Notes under the pieces: model-generated | Database searches by the model: none | Seen by the model: the letters and a program-made list of their open reading frames with translations, nothing else | Told to the model about the DNA's origin: nothing | DNA from: Neopestalotiopsis rosae | Taxonomy: Eukaryota; Ascomycota; Sordariomycetes; Amphisphaeriales; Sporocadaceae | DNA length: 64,000 nt | Assembly (NCBI GenBank): GCA_023078685.1 | Contig: JALGAS010000001.1 | Span: 1,488,001 to 1,552,000, forward strand | Direction: 5' to 3' | Position numbers and translations under genes: made by a program | Shown: positions 3,307 to 26,969 of the stretch, piece by piece | How the letters are laid out: every line of letters starts with the position of its first letter | How positions within the stretch are numbered: position 1 is the first letter of the stretch

Positions 3307-3329
3307 AGATGTCAGTCCGACTGACATCC
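3307..3329 (+). repeat. 23-bp palindrome, copy A
   Basis: Arms GATGTCAGTC and GACTGACATC flank one central base (C here); the first outer base is A instead of G. The left flank has CGCATCC and CCCTCCT and ends AGCTATACCGGATCA, as in copies G and I. Orientation is plus. Confidence 0.85.
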
Positions 3330-3705
3330 GAATTGATCCAAGACAAGGATTGCGTCTGTTCTAGCTGTTGACTCAGGTATCACATTGGACGAGCGCCGCC
3401 GCGCCTGAGCATCCTTGTAAGCGAGAGCCATGCATGACCGCCTTCAGCTCTAGGCCCGGATGGCTCGCTACTCGTCATCACCCGACAAACATCCCAATAA
3501 TCGGGAATTGTTTGGACAAGAGCTCGCGTTGTACAAATATCATAAGCTACGTGTACCCATCCCCCCATGTGTCATTACGAACCACGCGGTTTCAGTACGC
3601 GACTCCTCTACGTTGCTCTTAGCACGTCCAGCAATAGTGTCCTTTCGCCCCGGCCTCTCCGACAGCAATTCCAAGCTCATATACATAAGATTTTGGCTCT
3701 TAGCG

Positions 3706-4311
3706 ATGCGCATTTTTCAGCCGCGCGATGATTTTGTGACTGCCTTTCGGCGAATCTCCTGCAGACTCCCTCGTTCGTGTTGGCCCGGCGAAGACCAGAA
3801 GCTCACTAGAGTCGTATTGGCCGGTCCAGAGGGCTGTGGAAAGTCCAGTCTCATTCAGAGATACCATCGCGAAGAATACTCCGACGTATGTTGAACCTTG
3901 GTTGTGTCATAATGGAGCTAAGCATAATTCCAGTCTCCCTTAACCATTCTTGACTCAACCAGAATTGAGGTTGGACGATACAAGATCGAAGTTGACGATA
4001 CGGGCGATTGGAACACATACGCACATATAGTCGATGACTGCTTCAAGGTCGCAGATGTATGCATTATAACGTACCGCGACGACGACTCATTTGCATCAAT
4101 CAGGACCTGGAGTCCACCACGTCTCGATCGGAATGTACCAATAATCTTGGTTGCGATCAAAGAGGCGGAAACACAATCAGTAGGGAAAATAGAGGCTTCA
4201 AAACTTGCGGAGGAACGTGGTTGGTTGTTTTGGCCTGAGGAATTGTTTGGCAACCCTTTCTGGGCTGCACTTTTATGGCATGCGATGTTTACCCACATAG
4301 ATTCAAGCTGA
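3706..4311 (+). pseudogene. Degenerate Ras-like small GTPase
   Basis: The first exon (3706-3885) encodes a G1 loop, GPEGCGKSSL, inside VVLAGPEGCGKSSLIQRY, then HREEYSD and a GTATGT donor. Reading resumes near 3963-3970 with RYKIEVDDTGDW (G3-like), CIITYRDDDSFASIRTW (typical Ras beta4/alpha3 pattern), VPIILVAIKEAE where the NKxD motif should be, and LAEERGWLFWPEELF, ending at TGA 4309-4311. The joined length would be about 173 residues, right for a small GTPase. The DxxG and NKxD motifs are both altered. The best acceptor by consensus (CAG at 3962) gives a stop, while a weaker site (GAG at 3969) keeps frame. The gene is therefore probably inactive or an atypical, non-cycling GTPase. Upstream open sequence back to 3460 is probably not coding. 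Confidence 0.6.
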
Positions 4312-4499
4312 TTGCAGAGCTTCTTTTTCGCGATACGACCGAATGATTTACTGCAACATGAGGATATGTGTGTAATGCATCGGAGGGCCCAGCATTAGAG
4401 AGAGAGCACTAGACCAGCGGATTGCATTATACCAAAACGATGACGGAATGCTCCCACTCGCGTGACATGTTCCAAGAATGTTTTCGTAGATGTCAATAT

Positions 4500-5390
4500 T
4501 TGTCCGAGGGGCTGCTTTTTGATCAACCGTTCAGGTGGGTTGATGTCTGAATAGTTCTTTTTACCAGCGTAGTGAATTGATAGCCAAACATCAGCAGATC
4601 GAAGATATGATGTCCTCTGGTTTGGGCCACATCTGAGCTAATAACACCGGCATTCGATCTAGCAAGTATAAACTTTTTGATCACATCACTGGCAGGTGCT
4701 GGTTCCTTTTTAGTACGATCAGTCGTATTCTGCGCCACGGTAAGTGTTCCATCGCTACTCCTGGAACCTGTGCACAATTCTCAAGAAATCACAAAAGAGC
4801 TACCTTAAGAACCAATCCATAAACATACTGTTCAAATCGTTTTGAAGATGCCTCCACCGTCTCGCAAGAAATATTGTTTACTGTGTCATTCCCAGCTGAC
4901 GAATATGAAGACCATCTCCTTGATGTACTCAAGGATGAACGTGAAAGGTACTGTTGATGTGATTCTCGAATCCGATTGGTCAAGGAAATGCATCTGGACA
5001 CGATTGTGGTAGGCAATATCGTGTTTCGTTCCTTCGTCTCTTGGCAAGCAGGGATGTAATGGGCTGATTAAGGCTATGCCGATTTTGGATGTCAGTCTGA
5101 CTGACATCCTAATTTGGCCAAAACAATTTTCTTCATGTTAGCAGAGGTAAAACCCCGCCTTTGTACAGTAGACATCGAGAATTTCGAATCTTTTCCTGAC
5201 GGGAAGCCAAGATTGCTTATTCAGTTATGTATCAAAGATTAAACCTCAACACACCGCGGTTTGCTATGAAAAGAAATCCACTCATCTCGTATCAGTCGTG
5301 GAAGGAGGGTTCAATGATGCCGGCTAGAGAACCCTGGACGAGCAATTGGCGACTAGATTGGTCCCTATAATTGGAATCGAACCATTATCA
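4500..5390. repeat. Segmental duplication, copy 1 (partner 20730-21640)
   Basis: This ~0.9-kb segment aligns in direct orientation with 20730-21640, including a palindrome (5087-5109). On the minus strand it carries a gene relic: an exon with SCETVEASSKRFEQYVYGLVLK, a short intron with GTAGCT donor and CAG acceptor, then RSSDGTLTVAQNTTDR and VISSDVAQTRG. Both copies share the relic and the intron. Differences between copies are mostly C/T and G/A changes plus small indels. The relic family was not recognised. Confidence 0.7.
5087..5109 (+). repeat. 23-bp palindrome, copy B
   Basis: Perfect arms GGATGTCAGTC and GACTGACATCC around a central T. The flanks AAGGCTATGCC on the left and AATTTGGCCAAAACAA on the right match other copies. 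It lies inside the 4.5-5.4 kb duplicated segment. Confidence 0.9.
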
Positions 5391-5401
5391 AGGCGGTAGC
5401 T

Positions 5402-6419
5402 TTAGGCCGCACTTGCTTTTTCGGTGTGGCTGCTGGTTGGTCGAGGTGTGCTTTGTTGTAAGCTCCTGAAGGCCTCACCCGATTCTTCCGTCTCCTTGGC
5501 CTCTCTCGGCTTCGCATCCTTCTTGTCCATATCTTTCGGACGTAATGGCCCAGATCGTGTTGTCAGAGATACTTCTAGTACTGCAACTCGTTTTCTCCTT
5601 GACTTTTCGCTAAGCCGCGGGCTATCATCTCCGTGATCCGGTCCCTCAGCTATCATTTGCCGTGCCGCTGGTTAACGAATCAACTTCGGTCTCTTCGTCT
5701 TCATCTTCCACATCTGAACCAGCGGGCGATACGAACCGAGCCGTGGGCCGCGGACCCGATGAAGACGGCCCTCTTGTATTCTTCAAGATTGGGTGGGCGG
5801 GAGGCGGTCTTGTCGAAGATGGTGCCAAATCTTTGGGAGGCTCTATCTTTGGTGCCTTTCCATTGGCTGCACCTGGACTGCCCGGCGCCTTGTCCTTTTC
5901 GTTGCCGGACTGAGCCTGCTTCAAAATTGCCTAGTATCGATATTCAGGAAATCCTCCAGTTTCTCCAGTGGTTGAGCATACCGGAATCGAAGGTCCTTCA
6001 TATCGGTTCGTGGGCCCTCTCAGCGGCACAAACGTAGACCCATCGGATATTTGCTCAAAAATCCTGGCGAGTGTCGGGCCTGAAAGCTGGCTCCTATCGC
6101 TACCCAAGACATGCCACCAGAAGTTTTCCAAGCGATTAGCAGTGGGGTCCTTCAGCTTGCCAAAGGTAGTGGTATACACTGAGACTTGATTAGTATGGTG
6201 CAGCAGCCACAGGAGCAAGGCGGCCGTCATGATACCATGCCAGTAATGCCATATTTTCTCACGCGGGATAACGGGATAGCTTGCAATCTCGTTGTAGATT
6301 CGAGGGTCGTTATATACGATGCCTTTGGGCAAGAGCATCGCCATGGTATGCGTGTTCATATTGCTTTTGAGATGTAACCAGCTATGTGGCGGACTCCGGC
6401 CGGCAACGTCAAGACACAA
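5402..6419 (-). pseudogene. Broken gene of an uncharacterised fungal family (GPRPTARFVSP motif)
   Basis: Read on the minus strand, the first exon (to about 5985) gives GIVYNDPRIYNEIASYPVIP, one TM-like segment (MTAALLLWLLHH) and SGPTLARIFEQISDG with TFVPLRGPTNRYEGP. A 51-bp intron (donor GTATGC, acceptor ATACTAG) joins to a Pro/Ser-rich acidic part with HPILKNTRGP, GPRPTARFVSPAGSD and a DVEDEDEE run. Near 5653 the frame is lost by one base and continues in the next frame (basic, Lys/Arg-rich) to 5402. I recall the motif pair 'GPTLARxFE..ISxG' and 'PILKxxRGP..GPRPTARF' from uncharacterised ascomycete proteins; no function is known to me. The frameshift marks it as a likely pseudogene. Confidence 0.55.
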
Positions 6420-6814
6420 CTTTCGCCCATTCGATTCGACGATTCGTGGTTCTTTTGCAGACTGTCAAGGAGCCAGGTGTTTATGACCACTGTCAAGTAT
6501 AGACTGATGCTAGCGAATGTGGGAAGTTCTAAGCTTGCTGTGCAAATATCGGACATGTGACCCCTCATTTCTTTTTCTCTCTTTCTTTTTTTCAGTCCTT
6601 TGGAAGGCACATATATGGAACTAAAGCCTCGAACTAGTACTTCAGCATAGATCTACGTGACATTCGGCGCTTATAGTCCCGATCGTGGGGCCAGGGCGAA
6701 ACCAGATGTCGCCGAATAGAAGTTTTGAGATCAAGAATAACAAGAAATGAGCTAATTCGCTACCGTACGTATAATCAACTTTTGACGTCGAATACTCAAG
6801 GCTATGCCGGATCA

Positions 6815-6837
6815 GGATGTCAGTCAGACTGACATCC
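6815..6837 (+). repeat. 23-bp palindrome, copy C
   Basis: Perfect arms with central A. Left flank AAGGCTATGCCGGATCA, right flank GCGTTGGGCCAAAACAA. Confidence 0.9.
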
Positions 6838-7037
6838 GCGTTGGGCCAAAACAAGGGTGGCGTCGCTAGCCTTGGGCGGTAGAGTGTCGCATCGGTGACC
6901 ACTTCTATACCAAGTAATTATATGATGCACCGCTGATCAGTAAGTGGATTTTGGCGGTTTCCTAAGTGGCCAGCGGGATGGAATCGTCGTCATCTGTCAA
7001 CCCCGCCCCCTGGCAGTATCGTCACTATGCCAAATCG

Positions 7038-7060
7038 GGATGTCAGTCTGACTGACATCT
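7038..7060 (+). repeat. 23-bp palindrome, copy D
   Basis: Arms are perfect except the last base (T for C); central T. The left flank CACTATGCCAAATC matches the family. Confidence 0.85.
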
Positions 7061-7689
7061 TGATTTGGTAAAGCGCCAAAGGTGCTTTATGATGTGACAA
7101 TGATTTTGTACGAGTTTGCTGCGGTCCTGACCAATCTTTTTTTATTTCCTTTTCAGCATTTATGATGATGGAACAGGGTGAGAAGATGGAGGCAGGCAAA
7201 ACTGCAATTGATTTGGACAAGAGTGATAACTTTAGTGGGGCTACTACCTTGAAACCAAACTTTTGAGTCGATACAGCACAGCAAAATGGAATTGTAAATG
7301 ACAAGGTTGCACTAATTTTATGGATGGCCGATGCTCAATATGTTCCTTTCTCTCGTATGTACCCCCCGACGCGTGTAGGCTAGTTGATTGAGGAATATAG
7401 CTGAGGTTGGAAACTGCATCATTGTGTTGAAGTGCGTTGGGAAATGGCAGATTTGGTTCTCACATATATTCTTGGTCTTCCAATACACCTTGTAATACCC
7501 AATGCGCAGTACCAGACTTGACCTTGCTCGATCAAGAAGCTGGAATCCTGAATGTAGTGCAACTGAGACGAAAGGATAAGAGTGACGACTAAGAGATCCG
7601 ATCTTTGGCTTTGTTTTATTCGATGGAGACAATTATTGAAGAAGTGGTTGATCCGAGACGCGTGGTTGGAAGACTAGCCGACGCGAGGG

Positions 7690-9265
7690 GCGGGAGCTAA
7701 AAATGGCAGCCCACGTAGATGCGGAGATCAGGGTGGGGGCGTCAGATTCGACCGCGACGACGGCCAGAACAGTAGCCGTGGAGATGTCGGTTAGGGCAGG
7801 ATGGGAGATGTCTCCCAGGAAGTGCTGGACATGCTGGCACTGTCTGCGCGACAAGTGAAAGAAACGAATGAGGTGGTTCTTGACCTGCAGAGTCAGGTGC
7901 AAGAGCGAACGACTGAACTCAAAGGCGTGCGAGAAAAATTGAACGATGTCAAGGCCGGCCAGGCACTTATAGTTAGTGCACAAACAAGCCCGCAAGCATT
8001 GTATGCCGATGTTACACGTACTCGGACAAGTCAGCGCACGAATATACAGTCCCTGAGCACTGGAAACACAATTCTTTCGAGCCTCACGGACACGTTGTAC
8101 TGCACAATCGACACTACGAGAGTGAGCGAGAGTGAGGCGAACGTGAGGAATGCTGGAACGACGTGAGCGGCAGTGAAGAAGGAGTTACGATCGATGGAAG
8201 GGTACAAGGAATGGAGATGCAGGGCAGTGACGACGGACCGGAAGAAACCCCAGAAGACCAAGATGGTGTGCCGCGACGAGTGTGAACATCAGCTGGTGAA
8301 GAGGTCCGCCGAGAAGATCATGACAGCCGGAGCAAGAGTGCTGCGAGATGAGGTACACCCGATCAAGGTGGACAGCGTCAACCGGACTGCCGTACTTGAC
8401 GAGAACGGAAACATTCACCAAGGAGCGACAGAAGCTTTCGGACAGGAGTACGAGACGACCGTGACCAAGATCTCTTGGCTAAGCAAGAAAGATGTGCCCA
8501 AGGCATATGGATCTATGGTAGTCTATCTGACTAAAGCAGCGGATGCGCGAAGGCTGTTGGCGGATGGCTTCTTCCACGCCGAAGGCGAGTCGGGCTACAC
8601 GAGAGTGTTTGAGCGTCGTGAAGACCCCAGACAGTGTTATAAGTGCCAGCAGGTTGGACACAAGTCTTTCCAGTGCAAGAACGGCCAAGTCTGCGGAAGG
8701 TGTGCCAAGCCAGGACATGACATGCGCACAAGGAATGCACAGAGGTGGTCTTCAAATGTGTGCCCTGTGGCGGTCCCCACGAGTCGTCCAGCCGAAACTG
8801 TCAGAAGCTCTATCCTGTCTATCATGAATAAAGAGCTCCAGGTGGTGCAACTGAATGTGGGCCGACAGGCGACGGTGCAGGAGAGCCTGATGAATGATGA
8901 GAGGATGAGGGAGGTATTAGTCGTAGCCATACAAGAACAACAGACGAGGATTAAGGAAGGAATTTTGATGACGGTGCGTCGCCGGACATGACGGGGGTGA
9001 TGATCAGAACAGGAGACAGGAAAGTGCTGGTAGTCTCGGTGTACATTCCATCGACTGATCAGGACGCTCTTCGGGATGCGTGTGATCTACTGCGCGCGGT
9101 AGTCAACCACGCGCAGAGGGGACGAGGAGAAATGGTGGATGTCATGCTGGTTGGAGATTTAATCAGCACGATCAATTATGGGGTGGAGAGGATGTGACAT
9201 TTGCTAGGCAGGGAGAAGCGAATGCGATCATTGACCTGATGAGCGACTGTTCAGGAGCCGTGACA
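7690..9265 (+). mobile_element. Non-LTR retrotransposon (LINE) relic: gag-like ORF1 plus start of ORF2
   Basis: The frame from 7801 runs to 8991 with one in-frame TGA at 8164-8166. A further upstream part from an ATG at about 7702 appears frameshifted. ORF1 carries an RNA-binding-like core (GSMVVYLTKAADARRLL) and two zinc knuckles, CYKCQQVGHKSFQC and CGRCAKPGHDM. From about 8824 comes LQVVQLNVGRQAT and, after another frame change near 8990, VLVVSVYIPSTDQD and VDVMLVGDLIS. These resemble the N-terminal part of the ORF2 apurinic-type endonuclease. Nothing resembling reverse transcriptase follows; similarity stops near 9265. The order gag, zinc knuckles, endonuclease suggests a Tad1/I-like element. 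Retention of the 5' half is unusual, since LINE copies are normally 5'-truncated. Confidence 0.8.
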
Positions 9266-9553
9266 TGAAAGATTCGAAAGAGCGATGGACGTTGAGTCTA
9301 CAGCTAAGTGTCTCTATCTGCAAAATCAAACCTGAATTAGCAGACCGCGTTGTGTACTCTTGACACGGATTTCGAAGGCTGTCCGTGTCGTCTACAGCAA
9401 CTGTCAATTATTGAATTATTCACGCATTATATAAATTTGATGCAATCCCTGAAAACCTGAATAAGCAGTAAAGTTGAGAAAAGTTGAAATCATCATGGTT
9501 TCGATATTGTTGGATGCTAATACACTACTTTATCGATGTCCTTTCACAATCAT

Positions 9554-10438
9554 TCACCGCTTTGTGAGTTTACGTTTACCATTTTCCTGCACGCACTTCA
9601 TCATGAGTTCGCCGATGTTTGGTATTTTTATGCCTCGGGGCATTTGGATGGGACCTCGACTTCGTTGAGTATGGTTTTGAAACTCGCATTCTACAAGATG
9701 AACTTGTTCAATCTCTGGAAAGTCTTCGTGGTGGTCTTTCGCCGAGTTCCTCCAACGGTCTCGTATATGGTTGATTCCGGAATCTTCCAGAAACCGAACA
9801 GCCGATGGGGCCATGGCTTCGCCCTCATAATCGTCTTTGACGACCAAGTAGAGCGTTCTCAATCGCGGAAAGATAGCCACCTTCTCTGTGGATGATGCGG
9901 CTCCCAAATTCTGCACTTTTGGCTGCCGAAAACACTCGAAGCACTGTGCCATGGAGTCTTTATTTTTGTAATTAATCCTCCCATTGGAATCGAAATAAGT
10001 CGAACGTATATCCTTAGCTTTCAATGATAGATAATTTGACCCCAAATTGAAGTTTGCGAATATGGCGATGTTTTGAACCAGCCTTAAGCTATCAGAAATA
10101 CGAAGACTTCGAGGCAAGCGGTCCAAGCCGAGGTCGAGATACAATGTATCTACGGTGGGATGGATATATATGGCTTGATTTGAAGCCTGGCCGTTTTGAT
10201 CAGAGGCTTCTGGGGTTGTGATGATCACGTAGTGTTCAAGGCCAATCTTCCGCGACTCTTGAGACACAGCGAGGAGCGGAGGATGATATGCACCGCTGCA
10301 GGAGAATCTGGGTAGGGGGACAAGAGTACTATCATTGCAGAAAACTTTCCGTATCTTCACTACTCGAGCGATGATCATTAACTTCCAGATTGTGAACCTG
10401 ATCTCAGCAGGTAATGAAGCAAAGCAGTGGGAAGACAT
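9554..10438 (-). CDS. 2EXR domain-containing protein
   Basis: A single intact exon of 294 residues. The N-terminus FASLPAEIRFTIWKL, followed by an Arg-Lys strand (RVVKIRKVF) and LLAVSQESRKIGLEHY, is the signature of the fungal 2EXR family: an F-box-like 'LPxEIRxxIW' followed by 'LLxVxxESR'. The downstream part has the usual YIHPTVDTLYLDL, a conserved block, and VQNIAIFANF. The basic tail ends KRKLTKR. Molecular function of the family is unknown. The gene lies just 3' of the LINE relic, faces away from it, and has a TATA-like box 68 bp upstream. No breaks are visible. Confidence 0.85.
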   Translation of the reverse strand: MSSHCFASLPAEIRFTIWKLMIIARVVKIRKVFCNDSTLVPLPRFSCSGAYHPPLLAVSQESRKIGLEHYVIITTPEASDQNGQASNQAIYIHPTVDTLYLDLGLDRLPRSLRISDSLRLVQNIAIFANFNLGSNYLSLKAKDIRSTYFDSNGRINYKNKDSMAQCFECFRQPKVQNLGAASSTEKVAIFPRLRTLYLVVKDDYEGEAMAPSAVRFLEDSGINHIRDRWRNSAKDHHEDFPEIEQVHLVECEFQNHTQRSRGPIQMPRGIKIPNIGELMMKCVQENGKRKLTKR

Positions 10439-10505
10439 GTCGAAATGAGTTGAACAAGGTGAAGTGTAATTGCGTATGACTTTACGAAAAGGAGAAAGGA
10501 AGAGG

Positions 10506-10513
10506 TATTTATA
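10506..10513 (-). promoter_or_regulatory. TATA-like box of the 2EXR gene
   Basis: TATAAATA on the minus strand, 68 bp upstream of the ATG at 10438. Confidence 0.5.
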
Positions 10514-12245
10514 GGAAACAAGCTGCGCCTGTGGGGAGATGGTTACAAGTGGGGATCACCAGGTACATGTGGGGTCAGATGAAATGTGCTTTAGTGAGGT
10601 CGGCGGCCCAAGCAATACTATTTCAGGGAAGTTCATCTAGACTATATCAAATCCGGTTGACGACTCGATATCCACACCAAAACCAGCAGTCCCAATGCCC
10701 TGAGTGGGTCAGCATCGTTGTACTACCCTCGCAAGTCCCCAGAACGTGTGTGGTTTGGCCACGAAGGGCAACTGGACGAGAACACTTTGCAAACAACAGA
10801 CGCCTCGAGAGCAGTGGGCCGTATTCATCAACAATGGTCAAGCTTGCATGCGACGCCCGGACGCATCGTTTCCGATTGAAGGCATCCCTGTATGCTGCTT
10901 ATCAAAAACAGAACAAGTCCGCAGTCAGTGTCTGCTACCTGGCCTTGTGATTGCCACTATGGCGTAAGTCACATCTTGGAGGCTACACAGCACGCATGAG
11001 TAGTCTAAATTTAGCTTCGGTCGGTAGTCAGTGTTGGACATATCGCGCGCTTTCTTGAGCTGCACTAAACACCATGAATATGGACCGTAGTACGGTTGAT
11101 AGAAACGTCGACAGTTTTGTCGGCTCTGCGGTGACTTGTACGATTGTCGCATAGGATACAAAATGAAAACCCGCAAGCCGAAGATATGTGGGCTTAAGCT
11201 CCGGCTCTCCGGGTGTAGACCGCGGAGTGTCAACAGTGCCTGTGGACACACCTAAGCCAGGTCTTTGCAATGGCGGAAATTTGACTCTGTTAATGTGGGT
11301 CTTATAACCATACTCCGGTACTAGAGCTCTTTCTGATATAGAAAGGGCTCGAAAGCCTCGGAAGCGGACTCCACCCGTGGCGGAAGCCCTTGGCCTGTGG
11401 GCCTAAAATCCGTCCGCCGAAGAATGTGGGTCTAAGCTCGCTCCAGTTTTCCGGATGTAGATCGTGCTCTCCATAATGCTGGTTCCTTTGAGCCAGGTGA
11501 GCCAGGTAAGGGTGGGAACAACAACAGTGATTCCTTCTTGATGATGCGGGTCTTATGACCGTAGCCCGCTGCGCTCATGCAGTTTGCCCCCGGCACATAG
11601 GTATGGCAAGTAGTGCACGATGTGTCCAGTCCAAGTTTTGTTTACGATCAGCCACGGCTTAGCTGCAGCGTTAGTACAGCGTGACCGAGATGAACCCTCT
11701 GTCGACCTCCATGTCCATGCTGGAAGCATGGATTCCATTCTACCTAGATTATTAGTCTTTAAATCTCGGATCAGATGTTTGTTCACTTGAAATCCGAGTG
11801 TACCCGAAATCGCTTCCTGTAAAATGCGACCTGACTCACGTCTTTTGCCATGGATCGTACGGTCTTGATTTAACCATTCTTCTGGTGGGTTTGGTTATGC
11901 TCGAAAAGTCGCCATGGGACCCACTATACACGAGTTTAGAACTCTCATATTGATCAATCCGCTGCTGTACGTCTCATGTATGCTCCATGCATGAGTATGT
12001 GTTTTTGCAATAACGCGAAGTAAATTGGGGGACCTCCTGAACATTGGACTGAGACGCTGACACAAGCGTCTCCTGTTATTGAGTCACTAGTTTTATTACT
12101 TGAGTTGTTTGGCTGTCCATATGTTCATTGTGAATCAGGGCGTGGTATAGATGTGCGCAATCTTTGTTATTGCTACGCACTTAGAAGTTCTTCCCCAAAC
12201 AATAACTACCGCCTTGACTTGTCATCCGGCTAGTTGCCTCCCTTA
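10514..12245. repeat. Intergenic region with two inverted R2 repeat copies
   Basis: No gene is supported. About 11160-11300 and 11330-11580 match, on the minus strand, the repeat here called R2. Its diagnostic pieces are GGTCATAAGACCCG, CATCCGGAAAACCGGAG, and a tail close to CCCACATATCTTCGGC. The same pieces appear on the plus strand at 37.4, 42.9 and 46.4 kb. Confidence 0.6.
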
Positions 12246-12629
12246 TCAGCTAATGATGAAATGTGTCCTGTTCGAAAAGCGCTGGGTCCATGAAATCTTC
12301 TTGTTCCGGCCCCGCCCATCTTGGCCGTACTGGATCTCATCCATCTCGAGTGCTTCCTTGAGAATATCCATCAAGGACTCGGCTTCTTGACAGCCAATGT
12401 GAGACTCTACAGACATGATTTCATCCATCTGCTTTGTTGCTCGAGCCATCCTCCTTGGGTACCGATATGAATCTTCGACTCCTGTGAATATGTAGTTAGC
12501 GCTGATAGAACGAACGGTGAAGGCGACATAGATCCTACTTACAATTTTCATCATACGCTGCATTTGGGCCATACCGAGGGACGAATTGTTTTAGAAGTTT
12601 CTTCGATCCGATATTTGCCTACGATTGCC
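12246..12629 (-). pseudogene. Two terminal exons of an unidentified gene
   Basis: On the minus strand, a putative exon after a TAG acceptor (about 12622) reads KKLLKQFVPRYGPNAAYDEN. It is followed by a GTAAGT donor, a GCTAAC branch site and an acceptor around CACAGGAG. The next exon, YRYPRRMARATKQMDEIM and DILKEALEMDEIQYG, ends at 12246. The splice signals are good, and joining at GGAG rather than CAG avoids a stop. No upstream exon with a start could be placed. It is probably the 3' remnant of a larger gene, and the family is not recognised. Confidence 0.4.
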
Positions 12630-12770
12630 AGCAGGTCTCGTCAAATCAAATATCGAGGGAGTGGAGAAACTTCGTACAGAGATCCCTTGCTGAAGCATGC
12701 AGGCATGGAATCAGATGTTTTGACGTAGCTAGATTTTATTGCTGTGACCAGCTCGGGCCACATACTTGCA

Positions 12771-12778
12771 TATAAATA
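12771..12778 (+). promoter_or_regulatory. TATA box of the small gene at 12860
   Basis: TATAAATA, 82 bp upstream of the ATG at 12860. Confidence 0.55.
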
Positions 12779-15988: not shown

Positions 15989-15989
15989 T

Positions 15990-17540
15990 TGCCAATGCTA
16001 ATCCGTCGTGGATACGTCTAACAAGAAGCCACTATCTGATGCACGTGAGCCTGGGTTCAGCGGACGTAACATGGTCTTTCCGCGGCTAATCGGAGTCCAT
16101 CCACCTTGCTGATGCATAAGACGCTGGTTGGCCTTTTCTCGACAGCGAACCGCGACTTGGTATTTGTTATCGCCGAGACGTTCAAAAGTCCCGTTCGAAC
16201 TGGCCCACTCAGCCCGGCACTATATGATCCTTATCCTACAACCAGCCCCCTTGCCACTGTTGATTCTGGCTGTCCCCAACGCCAGGCAGATTATTCCCTG
16301 CCAGCATTCCAACTTTCGGCACCCCAAGTACTAGGCTGCATCGCCGCTTAACCTGTAATAGACGCATTTTCCCACCTGTTCACTGAAGAGCACGTAGAAA
16401 GAAAAGCAGGGTGGGGGCATGATGTCCGAACTCATACCACGTCGCATTGGAATTTTTGCAGATCTTTAATTGCATCAAACTGTCGGGCTATCTTCAGTAC
16501 CGGGACATTGATATGGATCGCCTCGTGACTTCACATTGACGAGAAAGCGACTCGGAAGATCGCTGCCTGTGGGGTGGCTGAAATTTACGCAAGATCAAAT
16601 CAATTGTGAGACCCGAGAGATTTTTTTTCTGATACGAGCCAAGTTCTGCTGCCAAAGTGGGCAAAAGGTTCGGCCATAACTTCCGTACATGGAGGCAAAT
16701 TGACGTGAACTACCTTGAACAAGGAACGTCATTCAAATTATACCGTAGCCTCTATGCTTGTACAGACTGAATGTCGAAAAGCTAGAGCTAATTGTTTTGA
16801 CCCAATGCGGATGTCAGTCTGACTGACATCCTGTTTTGGCTTAGTTCGAAAGCTGTTCAGGAAGGTTTGGCGGATGCGCCTTGCCTTTCCGCCGACCAGT
16901 CGGGATCTTGTTCAAGCCTGACCCTCAGACACAAGCTAGTTCGTAAAGAGAATTGTACGTGCAAAAAAAAAGTGGATTGAACGAGGTCATCAAGCAAGGA
17001 TAAGGTAGAAATTTTGATCTATGAGCGTAATCTCCTTCTACTGTATGGGGTTACTGAATTGACAGTCCAAACCTCGTCAGAGGCGGCGGCGTGACCCTCC
17101 TCGGGAGATATGGCTACTACCTGAGCGGCTGGGTATGGGCTCAAGTCAGAGTCAGGATGGAAACTTGAGAAATGGATGTGTATACTTAGTAGCATTAGTT
17201 GCCCTCTAGTGGAATGGCCCGGCGTAATAGATTGTGTGTGTGCGTGTATGTGAGGCTACTGACTATCTAGACTCCCAGTCATTCCAGTAAGAACCGCTGG
17301 CTGGTCATTTATGTGTAAGTCTCCCCCCCCCCCCGGTTTGTTTGTTACCGACAATGTTTTGTTGATAATCTCGATTCTTCAGCTATGAGTTCTATCATCA
17401 TGTGTTCTCCTTTCCTTGTAACTTGCTGAATAATGCCAGAGCATTCTTTGATGCCGGGGAGACAAGGAACAAATCGAAGGACTATTTCACGCTTATTATC
17501 ATGAAGATTTAGTATATCTGAATAAACCAAGAACCGACAT
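15990..17540. other. Intergenic region with palindrome E
   Basis: No gene is supported; the open frames are short and overlap on both strands. It contains palindrome E (16809-16831) and a 12-C homopolymer at 17323-17334. Confidence 0.5.
16809..16831 (-). repeat. 23-bp palindrome, copy E (inverted orientation)
   Basis: Perfect core with central T. Its flanks show it is the only copy in reverse orientation. Read on the minus strand, the left arm CCGACTGGTCGGCGGAAAGG and GCGCATCC precedes the core, as in copy A. Confidence 0.9.
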
Positions 17541-17548
17541 ACCTCTAT

Positions 17549-17878
17549 TCAAGCATTTCCTCTTGCAGCTCTATACAAGAGCTGTAAATCGCAAAGCAAG
17601 CCAAGTATCATTGACCACATTGACAGAGACATCTAAAAAGTCAATCTTGGAAAAAGAATTTTGTCTGCAGTACTTACAAGGACTTTTTGGAGTGTTCTCT
17701 CAGGCGCTTGAAGAATACGTATTTGATTACCTGCACCAGCTACGAAAGCTAATAAAACGATCCAGAATATCGCTCGATTGCTAAGTTCATGATTTGCAGA
17801 AATGTCGCTGCTGGATAGGTTCGAGGCTCTCGGGAAAATAGAAGGAAGTTGATTTAAATTGGATGTGTGGAGATGCAT
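17549..17878 (-). CDS. Tiny two-TM protein, 94 residues (paralog of 15635-15888)
   Basis: Exon 1 is 17878-17678 and exon 2 is 17632-17549. The 45-bp intron has donor GTAAGT and acceptor TTTTTAG. After a 30-residue polar N-terminus comes a TM segment, AIFWIVLLAFVAGAG, then RTLQKVL. Exon 2 gives a second hydrophobic run (SMWSMILGLLCDLQLLY) and a basic tail, RAARGNA. Intron position, intron sequence (AAAATTCTTTT) and 5' untranslated sequence (GGGAGGTGAC) resemble the 15.6-15.9 kb gene, so the two arose by duplication. Family and function are unknown. Confidence 0.5.
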
Positions 17879-18012
17879 CTTGTCTCTTCATGGGAGGTGA
17901 CGATGCTAAGATGAATATCAGTCTTGAATGAAACACCCGAAAGGATGCACGCAATTCTTCGAGAGGTAAGGATATTTAAATACTCCATGATTACACAAAT
18001 CCCCCTCGAGGA

Positions 18013-18018
18013 TATATA
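18013..18018 (-). promoter_or_regulatory. TATA-like box of the 17.5-17.9 kb gene
   Basis: TATATA on the minus strand, 135 bp upstream of the ATG at 17878, in a position like that of its paralog. Confidence 0.35.
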
Positions 18019-18372
18019 GGGTGAGAGATTGAATACGTTCGGTGCCCCGAACAAAAAGAAAGAAAACAAAGCTCTGACTGCAATGGGGGCCGGTCTGGTT
18101 CTGCGTGTATTGATGATAAGTGCAGGCGCAGGGTCATAGCTTCTGATGGCACGAAGAGCAAGTTTGTTCGAAATATTAATTTGCAAGGTTTGGCGCGATC
18201 TCCACCGCTGAAGTGCAGTCGACGTGGGATCCTGTTGCCAGTGTCTGCATCGCTTTGCTTTTCGCTGCCGAGGGATATCTAGAGAGGGGTGGGGTGAACT
18301 GAAACTTCTAATTGGACGGTGGACAGAAAATTTTGTACCCACTGAACCTTTTGTCGAAGCTATGCTGAATCC

Positions 18373-18395
18373 GGATGTCAGTCTGACTGACATCC
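18373..18395 (+). repeat. 23-bp palindrome, copy F
   Basis: Perfect core, central T. Left flank GAAGCTATGCTGAATC, right flank AGATTGGGCGC. Confidence 0.9.
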
Positions 18396-18534
18396 AGATT
18401 GGGCGCATCGAGGTTGGCCAAGCCAAATGCAAAGGAGAGGAAATTCCCCCTACTTGCTTTTTCTAGACAGGGAATAAGGATGCGTTGCGAGTTTGCCGTC
18501 ACTTCGATTGAAGGCGTGTCAGATTCTATGGACG

Positions 18535-18625
18535 CGGCAGTCTTGCGCCAGCCGATCGAGATCCCGGATAATTGCAACCACAGCAACAATGCATGTTGCT
18601 ATGGCTATCTCGCTGAACATGGGTG
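18535..18625 (+). repeat. R3 hairpin repeat, copy 2
   Basis: Contains TTGCGCCAGCCGATCGAGAT as in copy 1, and an inverted repeat, AGCAACA-5 nt-TGTTGCT. Confidence 0.6.
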
Positions 18626-18760
18626 ACATACTGTATCTGATTGTTGTTTCGAATGGGCAAGCCACTGGCTTAGTGCACTGTGGCTGGCCAGGATTTCTGA
18701 CTAGTTGGCAGAAAGACAATGTCGCATCCGCTTAACGTCCCTCGAAGCTATGCCAAATCC

Positions 18761-18783
18761 GGATGTCAGTCAGACTGACATCC
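18761..18783 (+). repeat. 23-bp palindrome, copy G
   Basis: Perfect core, central A. Flanks GCCAAATC and AAATTTGGC extend the dyad with mismatches to about 40 bp, the most extended copy. Confidence 0.9.
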
Positions 18784-19533
18784 AAATTTGGCCAAACTAA
18801 TGTTCGTGTCATTGTGAAGTGCATCCATTTTTCACCGCCCTGGCCCATGAGCCCGACTGATTACGGTTTGGCTTGCCGGATCGGAGTCACGATCACAGCG
18901 CCGCCAGATTTTCGTGAAAATTTCTGATGAAGGGTTAGTTATAAGAAAGCCGCTTTAGCTTGGGTCCGAAAAGACCCATATGGAAAGCGACACAACGCGA
19001 TGATGAAGAAATATTGCGTCTAGGAGGACGCCAGGGTCTAGGTAATAGGAGTTCCGATCTATCAAAGTATTTCGTTCAACTGAATCATCTGCAACGTCTT
19101 GTTTGAATGAGTATACTCTGGTTGTGACTCTACCCTCTCGTCTTCTGATGTAGGCAAATCCTCGAGGGCAATGGTCCGTAGCCAAGACGGAGGTCGAGAT
19201 TCCAACATCTTCTGACAAATCAGTCTAGGCGAGTATGCGTCAATAGTTAGTACCTCACCCTACTCCTGGGATGCAGGAAAGTACTAATGGGCAACGGAAA
19301 GATGCGTGAGAACTTGGCGGGATGATGGCATGTGGTACATATGTGACAATACCAGAGTTTAATTGCCGTCTTGCAGCGGGTTGGCCTACGACTGTAGCGC
19401 CTCGTATGGCATAACTATTATTATCTCTCACTGTCGATAGTACCATCAAATGGTATTTATTGCTGGTCTATTTTTTCACTCTCGCAGCTCGTCTCGCAAC
19501 TCACATAACTAAGAGACATGAGCTTCATTTAAA

Positions 19534-20510
19534 ATGAGCACGGAATCTTCTGCTTTAATTTGTTCACTGGCTCCTTCGTCAGCCCGCAAACCTATTTCTT
19601 TCCACCGTTGCGGCTTGGCCTTACTTTTATCTGTGGGTTTTGCTTTGACAGACACGGCCATCAGCACTAAACTACTTCCATGGCTGACAAAAGAGCTACG
19701 ATCTGACGAAAGAATGCTATGGATATACGGCGCCTCGTGTTGTTTCGATCACCTTGCTGAATATTCGTGGACGGATATTTCAGATTTCATCCGCAGCTTC
19801 TGGTTTGACGTGCTTTATGACCGGAGGCTCATGCTTGACAAGAAGGAACTTGACAGCCTCAGAAAAAACAGCAGTCTAGATTCAGTATTATCTATACTGG
19901 TCACCAAGCTTCCCTCGTTCGCAATCAAACAGGTTACGGTGTTGTGGCCTACCTTTGGAATATGGTCCGCCTTTCTCCCTGTCTTTCTAATATCTGCCAA
20001 TGTCATCATCAAATACAGCTCAGGCCAGAAAGAGGCGATGCATGACAACTGGGAGAAAGGCGTCAAGCTTCAAGATAGTTTGTGAGTATCCTAGCCCTCA
20101 TGGCTGCCAAGCGGCATCTTCTTACGTAACAAAGCAATGGGGACGATGAACAAGTTCTGCAATTTAGCCAACGAGAAGCGAGCCGATCACTTCGTCAGAG
20201 CGAATGGATCAAGTTTCGTTCCAACATCCTATGGGCGATCATCGTTGTGGGCTCGCTCGCGTATATATGCGATCGGTCCAAAATCTTTACGTCTTCGAGC
20301 CCAGTTCTCCTCATTATCTTGAAAGACGCCTTCGCAGTGAATACCAACCTACAAAAGTTGTGGCAAAGCCTCGCACCAGCTTGGACACTGATGAGATCGA
20401 GCGAAAGGATACCCCGCAGCGACTATTCACGTTATCCGACAATTTTGGCATTGATCGCGGCCCTGGTACGTATACTCAAACCCAGAGGAGAGCGAATCCC
20501 AGCAAGATGA
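19534..20510 (+). CDS. Predicted multi-TM membrane protein, 307 residues, unknown
   Basis: Exon 1 is 19534-20081 and exon 2 is 20135-20510. The 53-bp intron has donor GTGAGT, a GTAAC branch site and acceptor AAAG. Hydrophobic segments: CGLALLLSVGFALT, FGIWSAFLPVFLISANVII, ILWAIIVVGSLAYIC and YPTILALIAALVRIL. Between the first two is a soluble stretch with EYSWTDISDFIRSFWFDVLY, and after the third a polar loop with RSKIFTSSSP. The joined frame stays open across the splice to TGA at 20508-20510. The acceptor is weak (AAAG). I recognise no family. Confidence 0.5.
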
Positions 20511-20729
20511 TGTGTTGTTTCCAGATGTCTGGTCTTTTCACATCATTGCCACGGTCGGTAGGACACGGAGAGTGCTGTTGACTCCAGTGTCATAGCCCGT
20601 TAGTTTAGATTGAACAATAAGTATCAGAGATTCACATCTTCAAGTCTAATATCTCATTCTATCATCGTGATCTGCTCGCAACTTTCGGCTCTGGAAGACC
20701 ATACCAGTCAATTCGTCGCAATACTGCAA

Positions 20730-21640
20730 AAATTTGTCGGAAGGGCTGCTCTTGATCAACCGTTTGGATGGGTTGATGTTCCCAAAAGTTCTTGTTGTCA
20801 GCGTAGTGATTTAACAGGCAAACACCCCCAAATCGAAGATGTCCTCTTGTTTGGGCCACATCAGAGCTAAGAACACCGGCCGTCAATCTGGTAAGTGTAA
20901 ACTTTCTGATCACATCATTGGCAGGTCCTGGTTTCCTATCAGGACGATCGGTCGTGTTCTGCTCCACAATAAGTATTCCATCGCTACTCTTAAAACCTTT
21001 GCACAGTTCTCAAAAGATCACAAAGAGCTACCTTAAGAACCATCCCTTGAACATGCTGTACACACAGTACAAGTTGTCATGAAGATGCCTCTACCATCTC
21101 ACAAGAAACATTTTTGTTGATTGTGGCATTCCCAGTTGACCAATTGGAAGGCCCATCTATTGACTTACTCAGCATGGAATTGAAGGAGCGGTGATGTAGT
21201 TCTCGGATCCGATTGGTCAAGGAAATGCATTTGGACACGTTTGCGGTAGGAAATATCGTGTTCCGATAGGTTCTATTCCAATCCTTTCCGTTCTTCGTCT
21301 GTTTGCAAGCAGGGATGTCAAGGGCTGATCAAGGCTATGCCGATTTTGGATGTCAGTCTGACTGACATCCTAATTTGGCCAAACAATTTTCCCTTTGTAC
21401 CCCGCCTTTCTACCGAGGATTTCATTTTTTTCCGACGGAAAGCAAGTGCCAACGTTACGTTAAACCTTGCCATTGGCCTACCCACCCACCAAGCCGTCAC
21501 GTATCAAAGGCCAGACCTCAACGCACCGCAGATTACTACGAGAAGAATCCCATTCATCTCGTATCACTCGCGAAAGCAGGGATCAACGATGGCGGCTGGA
21601 GGGCCCAGGACGAGCAATAGGTGACTGTATTGATCACTAT
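20730..21640. repeat. Segmental duplication, copy 2 (partner 4500-5390)
   Basis: Direct repeat of 4500-5390, with the same minus-strand relic (LIVEQNTTDRPDRKPGPAND, GVLSSDVAQTRG), the same short intron and palindrome H in the corresponding place. The second half is longer than in copy 1 by a small indel. Confidence 0.7.
21348..21370 (+). repeat. 23-bp palindrome, copy H
   Basis: Perfect core, central T; flanks identical in type to copy B because both lie in the duplicated segment. Confidence 0.9.
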
Positions 21641-23002
21641 AGTTGATTTTGCGTCCGATGAGAAGGATTTTTCGTTTCCTTCAGTGACGCCTCCGCTGAA
21701 CCATGCAAAAGTGGTTTGCGCTTATGAGTCAGCCGTCGTATTTCATGCAATTTCCTCGTTTACTTGCGTAAGCATATCGATCTTTCCAGCATTCGCATCG
21801 TACAGGTTTCACAAGTTGTTGGATTAGCAAATCTGCCGGCGAAAAAGCCACCGTTTTTCGAGCTTGTGCCGGTATACTCGCGACCTAACAGCTGCAGGCT
21901 ATCGATGTTCCGACCAATGCTACACCCAATGGCTCCTGGTGGAACAAAGCTGCGGTACCGCTGGAGTTTCCAGTCTATAGTAGGCTTTTAAAACACTAAT
22001 ACCAACTACTGTCTACTTTGTTTTCGCCCTACCGTTATTGCTACGCTAAAGGCCATGCTTCCCGCCAAGCGTGTAAACAGCAACTCACGAGAAAGTTTGC
22101 TGAACACGGGCAACGGCGTCCTTAAAGAACACTCAGAGTTCTGGATTCAAGGGTTATCTTTTGGATGCAATAGTTGGTTCAATCATTGACGCCTAACGAT
22201 CGTTCCGAGGAAACGTGAACAATTATTATCCGATACACTTGGTAAATGTTGCTGATACTTGATGCTTGGAAGATTGACTTTTTACTGTTGATTCTTACAG
22301 GTTCACAAGTTGTGAGTACGGTCTGTCAATCAAGGATCAGCGAGCCCTTTCTTTTTCTGGATCAGAATTTTGGAAACGCAACACATCAAGCGCAAATATC
22401 TTGTCATATAGTCGTCGCGAACCATGTTCAGCAGGATAGCCACAGCAGCACGCATCGCTGCTGTGACACGTACAATTCATTCCAGTACACACATGCGGTG
22501 CAGCCACTGGGGAGAGGACAATACCCGACGATACATTACGATGTTGGAATCGGCTGCAGCTCACCACGGCACAGGCTTTCGAGGACAAGTTTGCATGCAA
22601 TCAAGATGCAGTTCCAATGAATGATCAACATTGTTGCATTCAATGGTCTGGTTGTACATAGGTGCCGGGCGAAGACTAGCAGGGGAGACCAGCAGCTTAA
22701 GGAACTTTTCTAGACACTCGCCAGCCTGATTTAGATCTCACCGACTACATTGCACCCATTTGTACTGATCGAGGTACAGGGAGACGTAACCAGAACCGAA
22801 AACCACAGAGTACCCGCCGTGTGATATCTTTGGATGAGCACAACGGTGCCCACTAATTTCTCCTAGTGACCTTGTCACAGAAAGATGCTGGCTATGATGA
22901 ATATGGTCAACCTGACCACAGTCGTCATACTATTTCAACCTCTATCCCGCTGAAGCTGTATGACCAGCGTTGAAGTCCATAGCATTTCGAGTGCCCCTCC
23001 AT
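21641..23002. other. Intergenic region, no gene recognised
   Basis: Only short overlapping open frames. It contains R3 copy 3 at 22415-22480. Nothing else is supported. Confidence 0.45.
22415..22480 (-). repeat. R3 hairpin repeat, copy 3
   Basis: Shares AACATGGTTC-type flank and the hairpin, here CAGCAGC-7 nt-GCTGCTG. The arms differ from copies 1 and 2 on both sides in a pairing-preserving way. Confidence 0.5.
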
Positions 23003-25271
23003 TTATGTCACGCCTTTAAAGTAACTGAAGTCAAATTTGGCGTCAACCTTGTGATGCATAGCTTCCCCTATCGTAGCCCAAGAATTCTCAACGAGCTCCC
23101 ACGCGGCTATCCGCTTGAGGTCTTGTTGAGAAGACCTACGGACAATCCCAGTTTGGCTTTGCGCACGATTTGAGGTTGAATGCACATCATCATGAGTGCC
23201 ACATGGTAATTCCGTCTTACGGTTCGACTTTCGGGCTTTCCCGTTTTGACCAGTCACATTGTTCTGCTGCTGGACTTCACTGGTATCGTGATTCATTTTC
23301 TGAGACTTTATGCCTCTCGCGTGCCTCGATCCAGCCATTCTTGTCGCTGGGTCGAATGAGAGCGCTACCAATACTTTCATGGTATTGCTGCCTCCCCCAT
23401 CGCTTGTCGAATAGACGATAGTTCGGGTATCGCCTGCTGCTGTAACGTTTCCACGGAGGTCCACTGGATTCATAACCCGATTGAGCCTGTGGATAATTTC
23501 TGCGCCAGCCTCGGTCTCAGCGTGATCAGCATCAGGCGGCCAAAAGAAGATGTCGTTGAGTTGGGCCCGACCTGACTCTTCTCTGGCCACTTGTCCACAG
23601 TGGGGGCCATTCTGTGCAGCCTGTGTGACAGTGTCCGAGTCGCATGTTCTCGAACCAGTCCGAATCCGAAGACGTTGTGTATCTGGTTCATGTGGGCAAG
23701 GATCATCAACCAAATCCATGAATGTACCACACGAATGCGAGTAAGACGACAAGTACGTTTTGCTCCTGCTGAACATGGAGGGTCCGTGATCACCTGGATG
23801 TGACTCCCTTTCCGAGCTTATGCTGAAGCTGGGGCGATTACTGCTTCGGATCAAAAGTACCAATGGTTCATCTGGCCAAGGATCGTTGCCGTCAATGCCC
23901 AGGCTTGTGTTCCCAGACCCATCCCGCTCATCGCTCGGGAGATCGAAATTGACATCTTTAGTGTAGTATGTCCGCCTGTTCTCTCTCCCGCCATTGAGCC
24001 ACTCTCGGCGGCACTCCATCAGCTTGATTGAGCCAGTCTCCTCGTCTTGACTCAGTGTAAGAAAGGTCCAACGATCATCAATCGGGCCTTCTTTGTGTTG
24101 CCTCCTGAAAGCATTTCTTTTGTGCATTACCTCAATGCTTTCGCGATTGAAGCTGTCGAGTGGAACGCGAAAGCAGTAGTAATAAGACGTCCAGTCAATT
24201 TCTTCCAATTCAAACGATGTCTGATTTGAGCATCCATATAAAGAGTTGTGGAATATTTCAAAACATACAGCGGATCCGATTTCGTAGCCAACCAAGTCAG
24301 GCATGGTCATCTTCCCGGCCGCTAATAAGGATTGTGATCCGATGTTGTAGTGGTGGAGGACCCATTTGCGATTGCCGCTCGCATCGTAATCTGAATGAGT
24401 ACCATACACTAGATCATTCTCATTATTTCGCACAAAGAGGCGTATCGTAGAATCCAGCGGGATTATACCAAACAACTTCTGCTCCTGTGCCTTGAAGACA
24501 ATAAGCCAGTAGCGCGGGGTGGGGCGTAAGTAGGACAGCAAGCATGTTGTGATACCTGCTCCGTGATACAAAGCTCGAAAATTGTATTTTTTACTGATTT
24601 CGAACCCGGGAATCGAGCGGGTGATAAGCCTCGGTATGTTGACAGTGACTTCTTGGTTCGTGGCGATTTGCAAATCAAGAATATGCAGACGCTTTTCAGG
24701 GCGGTCGCTCACAATGTACAAAAGATGACTATTGTAGAAGATATAGGAATCAGCGACGCCAACGATTCCCACTGCATAAGGGGAGGCCGTAGAGAATGCT
24801 CTTCGGCGCTTGACAAGCCTCCTAAGCGCCCTGCCATAGAGACCGTCATCAGCCGCATCAGTAGCTTCCGGCGAAAACGGTGCTTTCATCTAGGGAAATG
24901 TTGTCAGAAAAGCTTAAGTCCTCAGACGTATCGGGATCTACCTTTAGGAGCATTTTGCACAGGGTTGCCTCTTTAACCAAGTACTGAAAATGGTGGCAAG
25001 TCAGAGCCAAGTCGAAAATGGTCTCAACTGACAGTTCTTGCACAATATACGACAGTATCTCATACGGCAACCGTTTCAATCCTACAAGTCCTGCGACTTC
25101 TACTTTGGGGTGAGAATAGGAGTAACGAATGAGACCTGCGCCTTGGGGTGTTCGGCTCTGGCATGCTACAGGAGGATTGAGGGTGGATGTGAAGTGGACG
25201 TATTCAGTGGAGCCATCCTCGGAATCTGGTATGGCAGTTTGCGATGTACTGTCAACTGAAATTGAAGACAT
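23003..25271 (-). CDS. F-box domain protein, 738 residues
   Basis: Exon 1 is 25271-24942 and exon 2 is 24889-23003. The 52-bp intron has donor GTAGAT, branch CTGAC and acceptor CCTAG, and both exons are in phase 0. Residues 66-105 form an F-box: LKRLPYEILSYIVQEL, then IFDLALTCHHFQYLVKEATL. Such a domain would bind Skp1 and place substrates on an SCF ubiquitin ligase. Exon 2 starts ALRRLVKRRRAFSTASPYAV and GIVGVADSYIFYNSHLLYIV. This region up to about residue 450 has regularly spaced strands (VLHHYNIGSQSL, WTFLTLSQDEETGSIKL) and resembles the conserved core of long fungal F-box proteins. The C-terminal 200 residues are polar and low complexity. No breaks were found; this is one of the best-preserved genes in the window. 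Confidence 0.85.
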
Positions 25272-26969
25272 CTCCCCGATTCTTTCGCGATCAACCCTTC
25301 AAAAGCGCTCCCAAGATAACACAAAGACTGGACCTGAAAACGATACGAAGGTGAGTTCGGTTGAAGTAGCGAGGCAAGGCTTGTAGTACGGGATGAGCCA
25401 TATCATTGCGGAGATCTTGTCCAATGGCTCTTATCCCTTTGACTGCGGAAAGCACATCATTTTAGAGTTTGCAGGATTTCCACTTTTTCAACAAACCAAA
25501 ATGCAATCTTGAATGGCTTCTTACAGGGCGATTTGTGTTGTGCAAAGCTGCTACTCACGTTGTCTCGCGTGTGTATAACCAGTCATGGGATCTTGCACTG
25601 GTGGGTCTTATCCGGGGTCTCGATTGGCCACTGGAAGAACAACACGCATCCGCTGGACCCTCCTGACGAATACTGGAAGCTACGCCGGATCAGGATGTCA
25701 GTCTGACTGACATCCGCATTGGGCGCGTCGACATTGCCAAAGATTATAGTACCCGGTCATTGTGCCCATGGTTTTGGGGGCGCTTAGGGTAACCCCGGCT
25801 TGTATGGCGACCAGTCGGATCCGGACAAACCGTACAACGTTGCTCACTCTGAGCTTGCAGTCACCCTGGAGGAGTAAAAATGTCCTTGTCCAATGCTAAG
25901 GCAGTGCTACGTCAGTCTGTAAGGTCATTTTGTAGCTTGCATTAGGCGGTGAGCAAACCGAAAAAGAGAAATCTCGGTCCAAATCTCTACCAAGAGAGAA
26001 CGACAGATCATGACACTGTAACTCGGTTGGAAGTGAGATTGCGCGAACAGGCAAATGACGAAATGCAGAATAATGTACGGAAGATACTCGGATACGATGA
26101 ACGACGCGAAACTTGTTCTGCCTTGAACACGAAAATAATGATGTCTTTGAAGAAACATCTACGACTTATGATCCTACACGATATCGGGAAGGGCACCATC
26201 ATGATTAAAGGCGCGAAACGCAAGATCTTGATAGGCTTCAAAGGCACAACTCGTGGATAATAAAACAAGCTAGTCTTTTCTGTATCCCTCAATAAATGGA
26301 GAATGAAAGAGATTACATCACATGATTACCCTGATACATCTGGAAAACTAGTGCTATAATGATCTCATTAATTGGAAGGGAAACGACATTCCATCCATTA
26401 GGCTGGTCTACATCGCCGTGCGTTTGCAGCATGTAATCGTGGCTCTTTCGCACGACAGTGTAGAGGGATCTCTCGACAATGCTGCAGCCAAAATTGTGCA
26501 ACTAGATCCCGGCGACAAAGGAAATCCCCGAGGCATCCCTGCTTGTATGAGGCTTTGGCTCTCAGGTGTGCGAGCAGCAGGTAGTGATAGTCAATCGATT
26601 CATCGCTGATTCCATAGCAACTCAAGGCGTTTAGCACGAGCTGGTAGATGTTCTATTTCAGGCGTGCAGAGACGGCAACTTGACCACCACAGCTTATCAG
26701 TTCAGGATGGCCAGAAAACGTACAGAAACAATTGCAAAACACTACCGATGGCGTATACAGGTTCCATGTTACGACTGCTTCAGAGTACTCAGTTCTGTAC
26801 AGTATCTACTAACATTAAAGATAGGTCAATAGCATCACCTTCACGTTTTAGTTGGAATCGGCTATATTCGAAACCCTTTTGTGTAGATTTTAAAAGAATG
26901 CTTGCAGGTACAGTAAGTCGTGATCGTGTACTGAAGCAACCCAACATTGATGCTATTTGAGAATCAGAC
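25272..26969. other. Intergenic region with palindrome I and an unsupported open frame
   Basis: A plus-strand frame at 25949-26260 (GTG start, no ATG) gives a basic, helical 103-residue peptide, and 26398-26637 on the minus strand gives another. Neither has recognisable motifs, a good start or splice signals. I treat them as relics or chance. Confidence 0.4.
25693..25715 (+). repeat. 23-bp palindrome, copy I
   Basis: Perfect core, central T. The left flank matches copies A and G over about 75 bp (ACGCATCCGCTGGACCCTCC). On the right, GGCGACCAGTCGG at about 25807-25819 is the inverse of the outer left arm seen in copy E. Confidence 0.9.

Follow-up and report, generated by a model that had tools for sequence, protein, structure and literature searches.

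Short conserved units, palindromic or ultra-short and widely dispersed, are known from fungal mitochondrial DNA, where the PstI palindromes of Neurospora, MUSE1 and the GC clusters are reportedly considered mobile and recombinogenic (PMC7218506). Here, we describe a unit of similar form in Neopestalotiopsis rosae, a 23-bp palindrome set in a 41-bp dyad, which occurs nine times in a 64,000-nucleotide stretch of contig C1 (C1:1488001-1552000, hereafter the window; host genome 53.77 Mb, 17 contigs). In contrast to the mitochondrial units, from which we set it apart by location and layout, the N. rosae element is nuclear, nearly confined to two chromosome blocks, and equipped with free spacers and polar flanks. 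We predict from its sequence, with a probability of roughly 0.55, that the palindrome is a site for a symmetric DNA-binding protein and has spread largely by segmental duplication.

Two-fold symmetry with contact blocks split by free bases is a feature of NF-I sites, lox and FRT sites and the CENP-B box, a likeness of layout only. With miniature inverted-repeat transposable elements (MITEs) and hairpin repeats, the element shares a small, non-coding inverted-repeat core in many copies, but it differs from them in having no target duplication or defined ends, few solo ends, and no clean empty site among the paralogous comparisons reported. A further point of comparison is provided by the fungal Starships, giant transposons to which DUF3435 and DUF3723 genes are tied (PMC12134995). 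In the N. rosae genome, DUF3435 (the Starship captain; 20 matches, ~10 loci) and DUF3723 (10 matches) are found only on C1 and C17, the contigs that carry the palindrome blocks; about six of the ten DUF3435 loci lie inside the blocks, three within ~0.2 Mb of their edges, and one is remote at C1 7.14 Mb. The palindrome nevertheless outnumbers these loci (~150 copies versus ~10) and has no fixed place beside a captain. Whereas a Starship has its captain at one end, the palindrome element is ~60 bp long and non-coding, and among the copies located so far only one of ten DUF3435 loci is less than 2 kb from a palindrome (1.9 kb), the rest being at least 12.8 kb away.

As the earlier note had stated, the palindrome is matched to no described family in the literature and Rfam searches made. 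Searching the literature for the 11-mer returned unrelated papers only, judged by title, and the titles and abstract openings retrieved for accessory-chromosome palindromes, Starships and palindromes, Pestalotiopsis genomes, nuclear palindromic repeats and Pestalotiopsis MITEs did not describe the element. The term 'palindrom' was not present in the Starship literature searched. There was no occurrence of the exact motif in viral contigs or in prokaryote genomes taken one per species.

Anatomy of the element

The constrained unit reads GCCnAAT-nn-GGATGTCAGTC-W-GACTGACATCC-nn-ATTnGGC-ATAGC, with free 2-bp spacers. Among 83 oriented copies, the 22 arm positions were 95-100% identical and the centre was mostly T or A; the two bases flanking the palindrome on each side were at background (49-61%), and GCCnAAT and ATTnGGC were conserved past these spacers, as was ATAGC on one side. 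The information content of 41 non-redundant copies was 1.67-1.95 bits per base in the inner arms, 0.8 at the centre, 0.24-0.54 in the spacers and 1.1-1.95 in the outer blocks apart from their middle base, which carried 0.04 bits on one side and 0.85 on the other. ATAGC itself reached 1.2-1.95 bits and the next TT 1.3, with mostly 0.1-0.7 bits farther out.

Beyond the core, homology is confined to subfamilies and decays by subfamily without fixed termini. The share of pairs still aligned on the ATAGC side fell from 75% at a distance of 12 bp to 30% at 20 bp; on the opposite side it was 52% at 9 bp, falling to 19% by 20 bp. The strongly diverged flanks described in the earlier note are found beyond ~20 bp, but the first 12-20 bp are conserved, save for the two free 2-bp spacers. 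In these profiles, conservation is base-specific and the freely varying positions are placed symmetrically, as would suit a protein-binding dyad. Judged by sequence, the element is dispersed, non-coding and ~60 bp long, with a two-fold symmetric heart and a one-sided ATAGC that gives it direction.

Distribution and conservation of the palindrome

All nine copies reported for the window, seven of them perfect, were found (Table 1), and 100 dinucleotide shuffles of the window yielded no match to the 23-mer with up to three mismatches allowed. The right 37 kb of the window indeed holds no copy, but the reported confinement to the left 27 kb proved to be an artefact of the window. The next perfect copy is only 2.9 kb beyond the right end (C1:1554914 onward) and perfect copies also lie to the left (C1:1447420-1475454); the apparent limit arises from a gap in the chromosome-block pattern. 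Beside a cluster of five palindromes in 2.3 kb at C1:1554.6 kb, we observed a run of ~40 G (locus L010, ~3540-3590).

The whole-genome search with the 23-bp core that the earlier note had proposed brought the copy number to 152 places at up to three mismatches (reversed-pattern control, 0), including 103 exact copies with A or T at the centre. Among the matches listed, which contain 100 exact copies, 65 were on C1 (1.447-2.747 Mb) and 35 on C17 (1.599-2.992 Mb); three further exact copies from the fetched loci (C17:2998199, C17:3000038 and C17:3000506) fit the remaining 3 of 103. All exact copies are therefore inside C1 1.447-2.747 Mb and C17 1.599-3.001 Mb, or 5% of the genome. Thirty-seven of the 49 imperfect copies were located, 36 of them in the same blocks. 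The sole located copy outside, C10:1773506 (2 mismatches), is near an FTA2-domain gene, within 1.5 kb of sequence that matches C17:1598387-1599889 at 95% identity, indicating that confinement is strong, not absolute, and that duplication can export a copy. The sequence GACATCCnnATTCGGCATAGC was found at 147 places at up to three mismatches (control, 1), and all 100 among the matches listed were within the C1 and C17 blocks. Many copies ride on larger duplicated segments. At the chromosome scale, there was no orientation skew (33 plus, 28 minus and 11 unassigned on C1; 12, 11 and 5 on C17).

Because most loci had been fetched by the palindrome, we retested its conservation from outside sequence, using 19 bp beyond the palindrome. 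This sequence, ATTCGGCATAGCTTCGAGG, was found at 95 places in the whole genome at up to three mismatches (control, 7). Retention was scored on the 58 places with up to two mismatches; of the other 37, at three mismatches, ~14 are on other contigs, about the control expectation. The palindrome (up to three mismatches allowed) was present in 56 of the 58; the two exceptions are C17:2259606, where it has decayed (6 mismatches), and C17:2455410, where it is absent. A profile of the ATAGC-side arm, built without the palindrome, likewise identified 80 arms in the palindrome-selected loci, 77 of them with a palindrome.

The palindrome also changes more slowly than its own flanks, a comparison that the earlier note had put forward as a check. 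In 25 disjoint close pairs, 7 of 550 palindrome positions differed (1.3%) versus 507 of 10934 in flanks beyond 30 bp (4.6%; p = 2.5e-5), with 10 of 97 differing in the spacers and 14 of 343 in the outer blocks. A looser set of 30 pairs, which includes doubtful alignments, gave 22/659 for the palindrome, ~8-10% for the flanks and 29% for the spacers. Even in pairs less than 40% identical in the distal flank, the palindrome was still 94% common. In the 263 kb of fetched, palindrome-selected sequence, palindrome 12-mers had the most distinct contexts of any 12-mers, the runner-up being ACAGAAGAGTAT, a short tandem repeat word.

Explanations for the conserved dyad

Between selection, gene conversion and recent spread, which the earlier note had offered side by side, the data favour selection. 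Neither gene conversion nor a recent burst is a likely cause, because the bases adjoining the near-invariant 23-mer vary freely while ATTnGGC-ATAGC is conserved beyond them. Conservation with free spacers likewise makes a dimeric-protein binding site, one of that note's suggestions, the reading that the sequence best supports. The free spacers, the few solo halves, the lack of direct duplications and the lack of a clean empty site among the paralogues compared fit a base-specific protein with two contacts per half. In this model, a DNA-binding protein acting as a dimer or tetramer would devote one subunit to each half, which consists of an inner 11-bp block, an uncontacted 2-bp gap and an outer 7-bp block, and any copy that lost the site may have been removed or not propagated. 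The bound protein could mark chromatin, regulate genes at a distance, or take part in recombination.

Several observations weigh against this interpretation. At least one change is carried by 28 of the 99 fetched copies (up to three mismatches), implying that no individual site is strictly essential, and the conservation is that among copies of a single genome. In addition, the nearest predicted 5' end is at a median of 2.1 kb, compared with 1.6 kb for random points (44 palindrome-to-5'-end values, codon-model genes only). These distances rule out a proximal promoter element, which we had considered, and thereby remove the plainest use of such a site. The earlier placement of all copies between genes is borne out by codon-model genes, which contain none of 64 copies versus 11.1 expected (loci of at least 9 kb; 34 copies are edge cases that lack a gene on one side), but not by stop-to-stop frames of at least 130 amino acids (aa), which contain 6 of 64. 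Window copy 18373 falls in a 202-aa frame that has no other sign of being a gene. Divergent intergenic positions are in excess (16 copies versus 7.2 expected), and frames on the non-ATAGC side tend to point away (39 versus 15, copies not being independent).

The palindrome might instead be a recombination site or hotspot, at which a recombinase or cruciform cleavage breaks, exchanges or deletes segments and so shuffles the compartment. Homology often stops there: of 167 pair-sides with long homology across the palindrome's opposite side, 54 lost homology less than 30 bp from it, and 167 of 668 alignment ends (~12 expected) clustered at 15-60 bp from the centre. In one strong case, a single palindrome at C1:1596815 and two palindromes on C17 (2843778 and 2846753; 2,975 bp apart) are enclosed by the same outer flanks (identity 90% over 315 bp and 89% over 297 bp). 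Two sites are broken near the centre, one at C10:1773110 and the other in a rearrangement at C1:2053983/2054026, and a third, C17:2455410, appears to be deleted. These homology ends and broken sites support exchange or breakage at palindromes, but they may follow from the presence of a conserved word among repeats, since a conserved 23-mer among diverged repeats attracts exchange passively. Several apparent homology switches were indels beside the palindrome, and no indel hotspot was seen there in 30 disjoint pairs (some with doubtful alignments). Conversion, moreover, leaves the free spacers unexplained, and the captain genes are not beside the copies. We regard a recombination site as an unlikely reading of the palindrome.

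Still less probable, in our assessment, is a small non-autonomous transposon or hairpin element with the palindrome as its core, which would be conserved because a damaged copy could no longer multiply. The ~150 dispersed copies in several contexts would suit such an element, as would the finding that changes in the palindrome are mostly private to single copies or subfamilies. However, when the borders of the 23-mer, the 41-mer and the -29/+29 core were examined in 98 copies for direct duplications of 2-8 bp, no count exceeded the highest of 500 shuffles (for 2 bp next to the 23-mer, 7 copies against a mean of 2.8 and a maximum of 8 after shuffling), homology fades by subfamily without fixed termini, and many copies are carried on larger duplicated segments. 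Half-only sites were rare (5 versus 190 full half-site hits), and for this reason we also dropped a head-to-tail junction of transposon ends as a candidate. Among 97 reported non-standard paralogous comparisons of palindrome-selected loci, none contained a clean empty site. The closest case, C17:2455410 (L052, 2455280-2455560; 88% to C1:1447501-1447810), has lost the palindrome between recognisable arms and keeps the ATAGC-side arm; the ~30 bp lost do not match a clean unit, and by its sequence it looks like a deletion, not an empty site. The proposed MITE core finds no backing in these data.

A structured non-coding RNA with the palindrome as its hairpin appears very improbable. Single strands of the 41-mer from five window copies do form stable folds (z between -3.2 and -7.7, DNA parameters), which is to be expected of any palindrome, and covariation over the 41-mer was weak, with an excess on two of five measures: five pairs with both-sided changes were reached by 11 of 500 shuffles and the covariation score by 34 of 500, excesses that relatedness alone can produce, whereas the cells paired were reached by 176 of 500. 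Both-sided changes were mostly in the outer blocks, where one middle pair was unpaired in 26 of 41 copies. Within the 23-mer, we counted one compensated pair against 38 uncompensated changes, which together with the weak covariation suggests that pairing is not clearly what is kept. No Rfam match at gathering score was obtained for window positions 1-30000. For the folded element proposed earlier, covariation is at best weak.

Lastly, the conservation might be apparent only, a product of palindrome-based finding and recent duplication in a compartment full of segments ~67-99% identical. This reading is already disfavoured, and we give it very little credence, given the retention of the palindrome in the outside-sequence search and its slower change than the flanks of the same pairs.

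The predicted protein site allows a broader and more doubtful proposal, in which the ~150 copies of the 41-bp dyad would be read by a dedicated symmetric protein and serve as a compartment-wide address mark for the Starship-bearing blocks of two chromosomes. The reader could be a captain-type tyrosine recombinase or another transposon-derived protein, and the mark would single the blocks out for a special mode of chromatin, segregation or recombination and help them to stay distinct from the core genome. Gene content, repeats or chromatin marks are the usual means of telling accessory, transposon-rich blocks apart in fungal chromosomes; here, one short DNA word is almost exclusive to such blocks and is conserved far more tightly than the surrounding DNA. 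If a protein reads the palindrome, it would offer a handle on the organisation, maintenance or rearrangement of these blocks, and other fungi could be probed for the system simply by means of the motif.

The chromosome blocks and the copies in the window

The C1 and C17 blocks are built as a mosaic of segments homologous to one another, with identities of ~67-99% (the fetched loci, including overlapping ones, gave 845 alignments at E below 1e-20). DDE_1 transposases are dispersed, with 8 of 31 genome-wide on C1 and C17 and the remainder on other contigs, as are HET domains, which occur on many contigs (150 scored of 350 candidates); the DUF3435/DUF3723 pattern is therefore not a general repeat effect. 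A tie to HET allorecognition genes was dropped on the same HET counts. The DUF3435 genes at C17 1.42, 1.81 and 3.20 Mb score the same or nearly so, suggesting that they duplicated or moved recently.

NACHT, ankyrin, Hsp70, RRM, FTA2 and DDE_3 genes lie among the palindrome copies. FTA2 matches are concentrated on C1 and C17 (50 of 60); The blocks contain an amplified set of FTA2-domain genes (named after the kinetochore Sim4 family), some with stops, and several are 0.5-0.8 kb from a palindrome. A segment with part of an RRM gene, copied in the blocks, is also present on C6, where the upstream sequence matches no fetched palindrome locus and contains no palindrome.

The codon-model coding share was 17% in the window and palindrome-centred loci. 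Open-frame cover was 0.58 in the compartment and 0.43-0.57 in three of four 3-kb core samples, and on account of this similarity we do not claim a gene-poor compartment. The fourth sample (L070, C1:4000001-4003000) had no open-frame cover and no frame of 100 aa; at 23.7% GC, it is possibly centromeric DNA or DNA affected by repeat-induced point mutation (RIP). Many DDE_1 copies outside the blocks have numerous TAA/TAG stops, a pattern that resembles RIP; the duplicated block segments fetched keep ~47-50% GC.

Table 1 Copies of the 41-bp dyad (23-bp palindrome plus 9 bp per side) in window coordinates; strand denotes the side of the ATAGC arm
Feature	Position	Strand	Remarks
41-bp dyad	3298..3338	-	palindrome 3307-3329, 1 mismatch, centre C
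41-bp dyad	5078..5118	-	palindrome 5087-5109, perfect
41-bp dyad	6806..6846	-	palindrome 6815-6837, perfect
41-bp dyad	7029..7069	- (tentative; arm cluster 11)	palindrome 7038-7060, 1 mismatch
41-bp dyad	16800..16840	+	palindrome 16809-16831, perfect
41-bp dyad	18364..18404	-	palindrome 18373-18395, perfect; first of direct pair
41-bp dyad	18752..18792	-	palindrome 18761-18783, perfect; second of direct pair
41-bp dyad	21339..21379	-	palindrome 21348-21370, perfect; within 0.9-kb repeat
41-bp dyad	25684..25724	-	palindrome 25693-25715, perfect

The direct pair in the window has a spacing of 388 bp, and the same pair unit recurs at several other places. The 0.9-kb repeat around the eighth dyad (20729-21645) is 73% identical to 4495-5373, and the ninth dyad has paralogues at 96-97% (C17:2232675-2232835, C17:2900132-2900292 and C1:2627550-2627701). 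Short tandem repeats of 17-18 bp are present at window positions 1565-1695 and 1831-1894, with similar sequence near 55015-55484. A 628-aa frame of the window resembles F-box-type proteins, the best named matches being from Neopestalotiopsis clavispora (78%) and Pestalotiopsis fici (73%), both Sporocadaceae.

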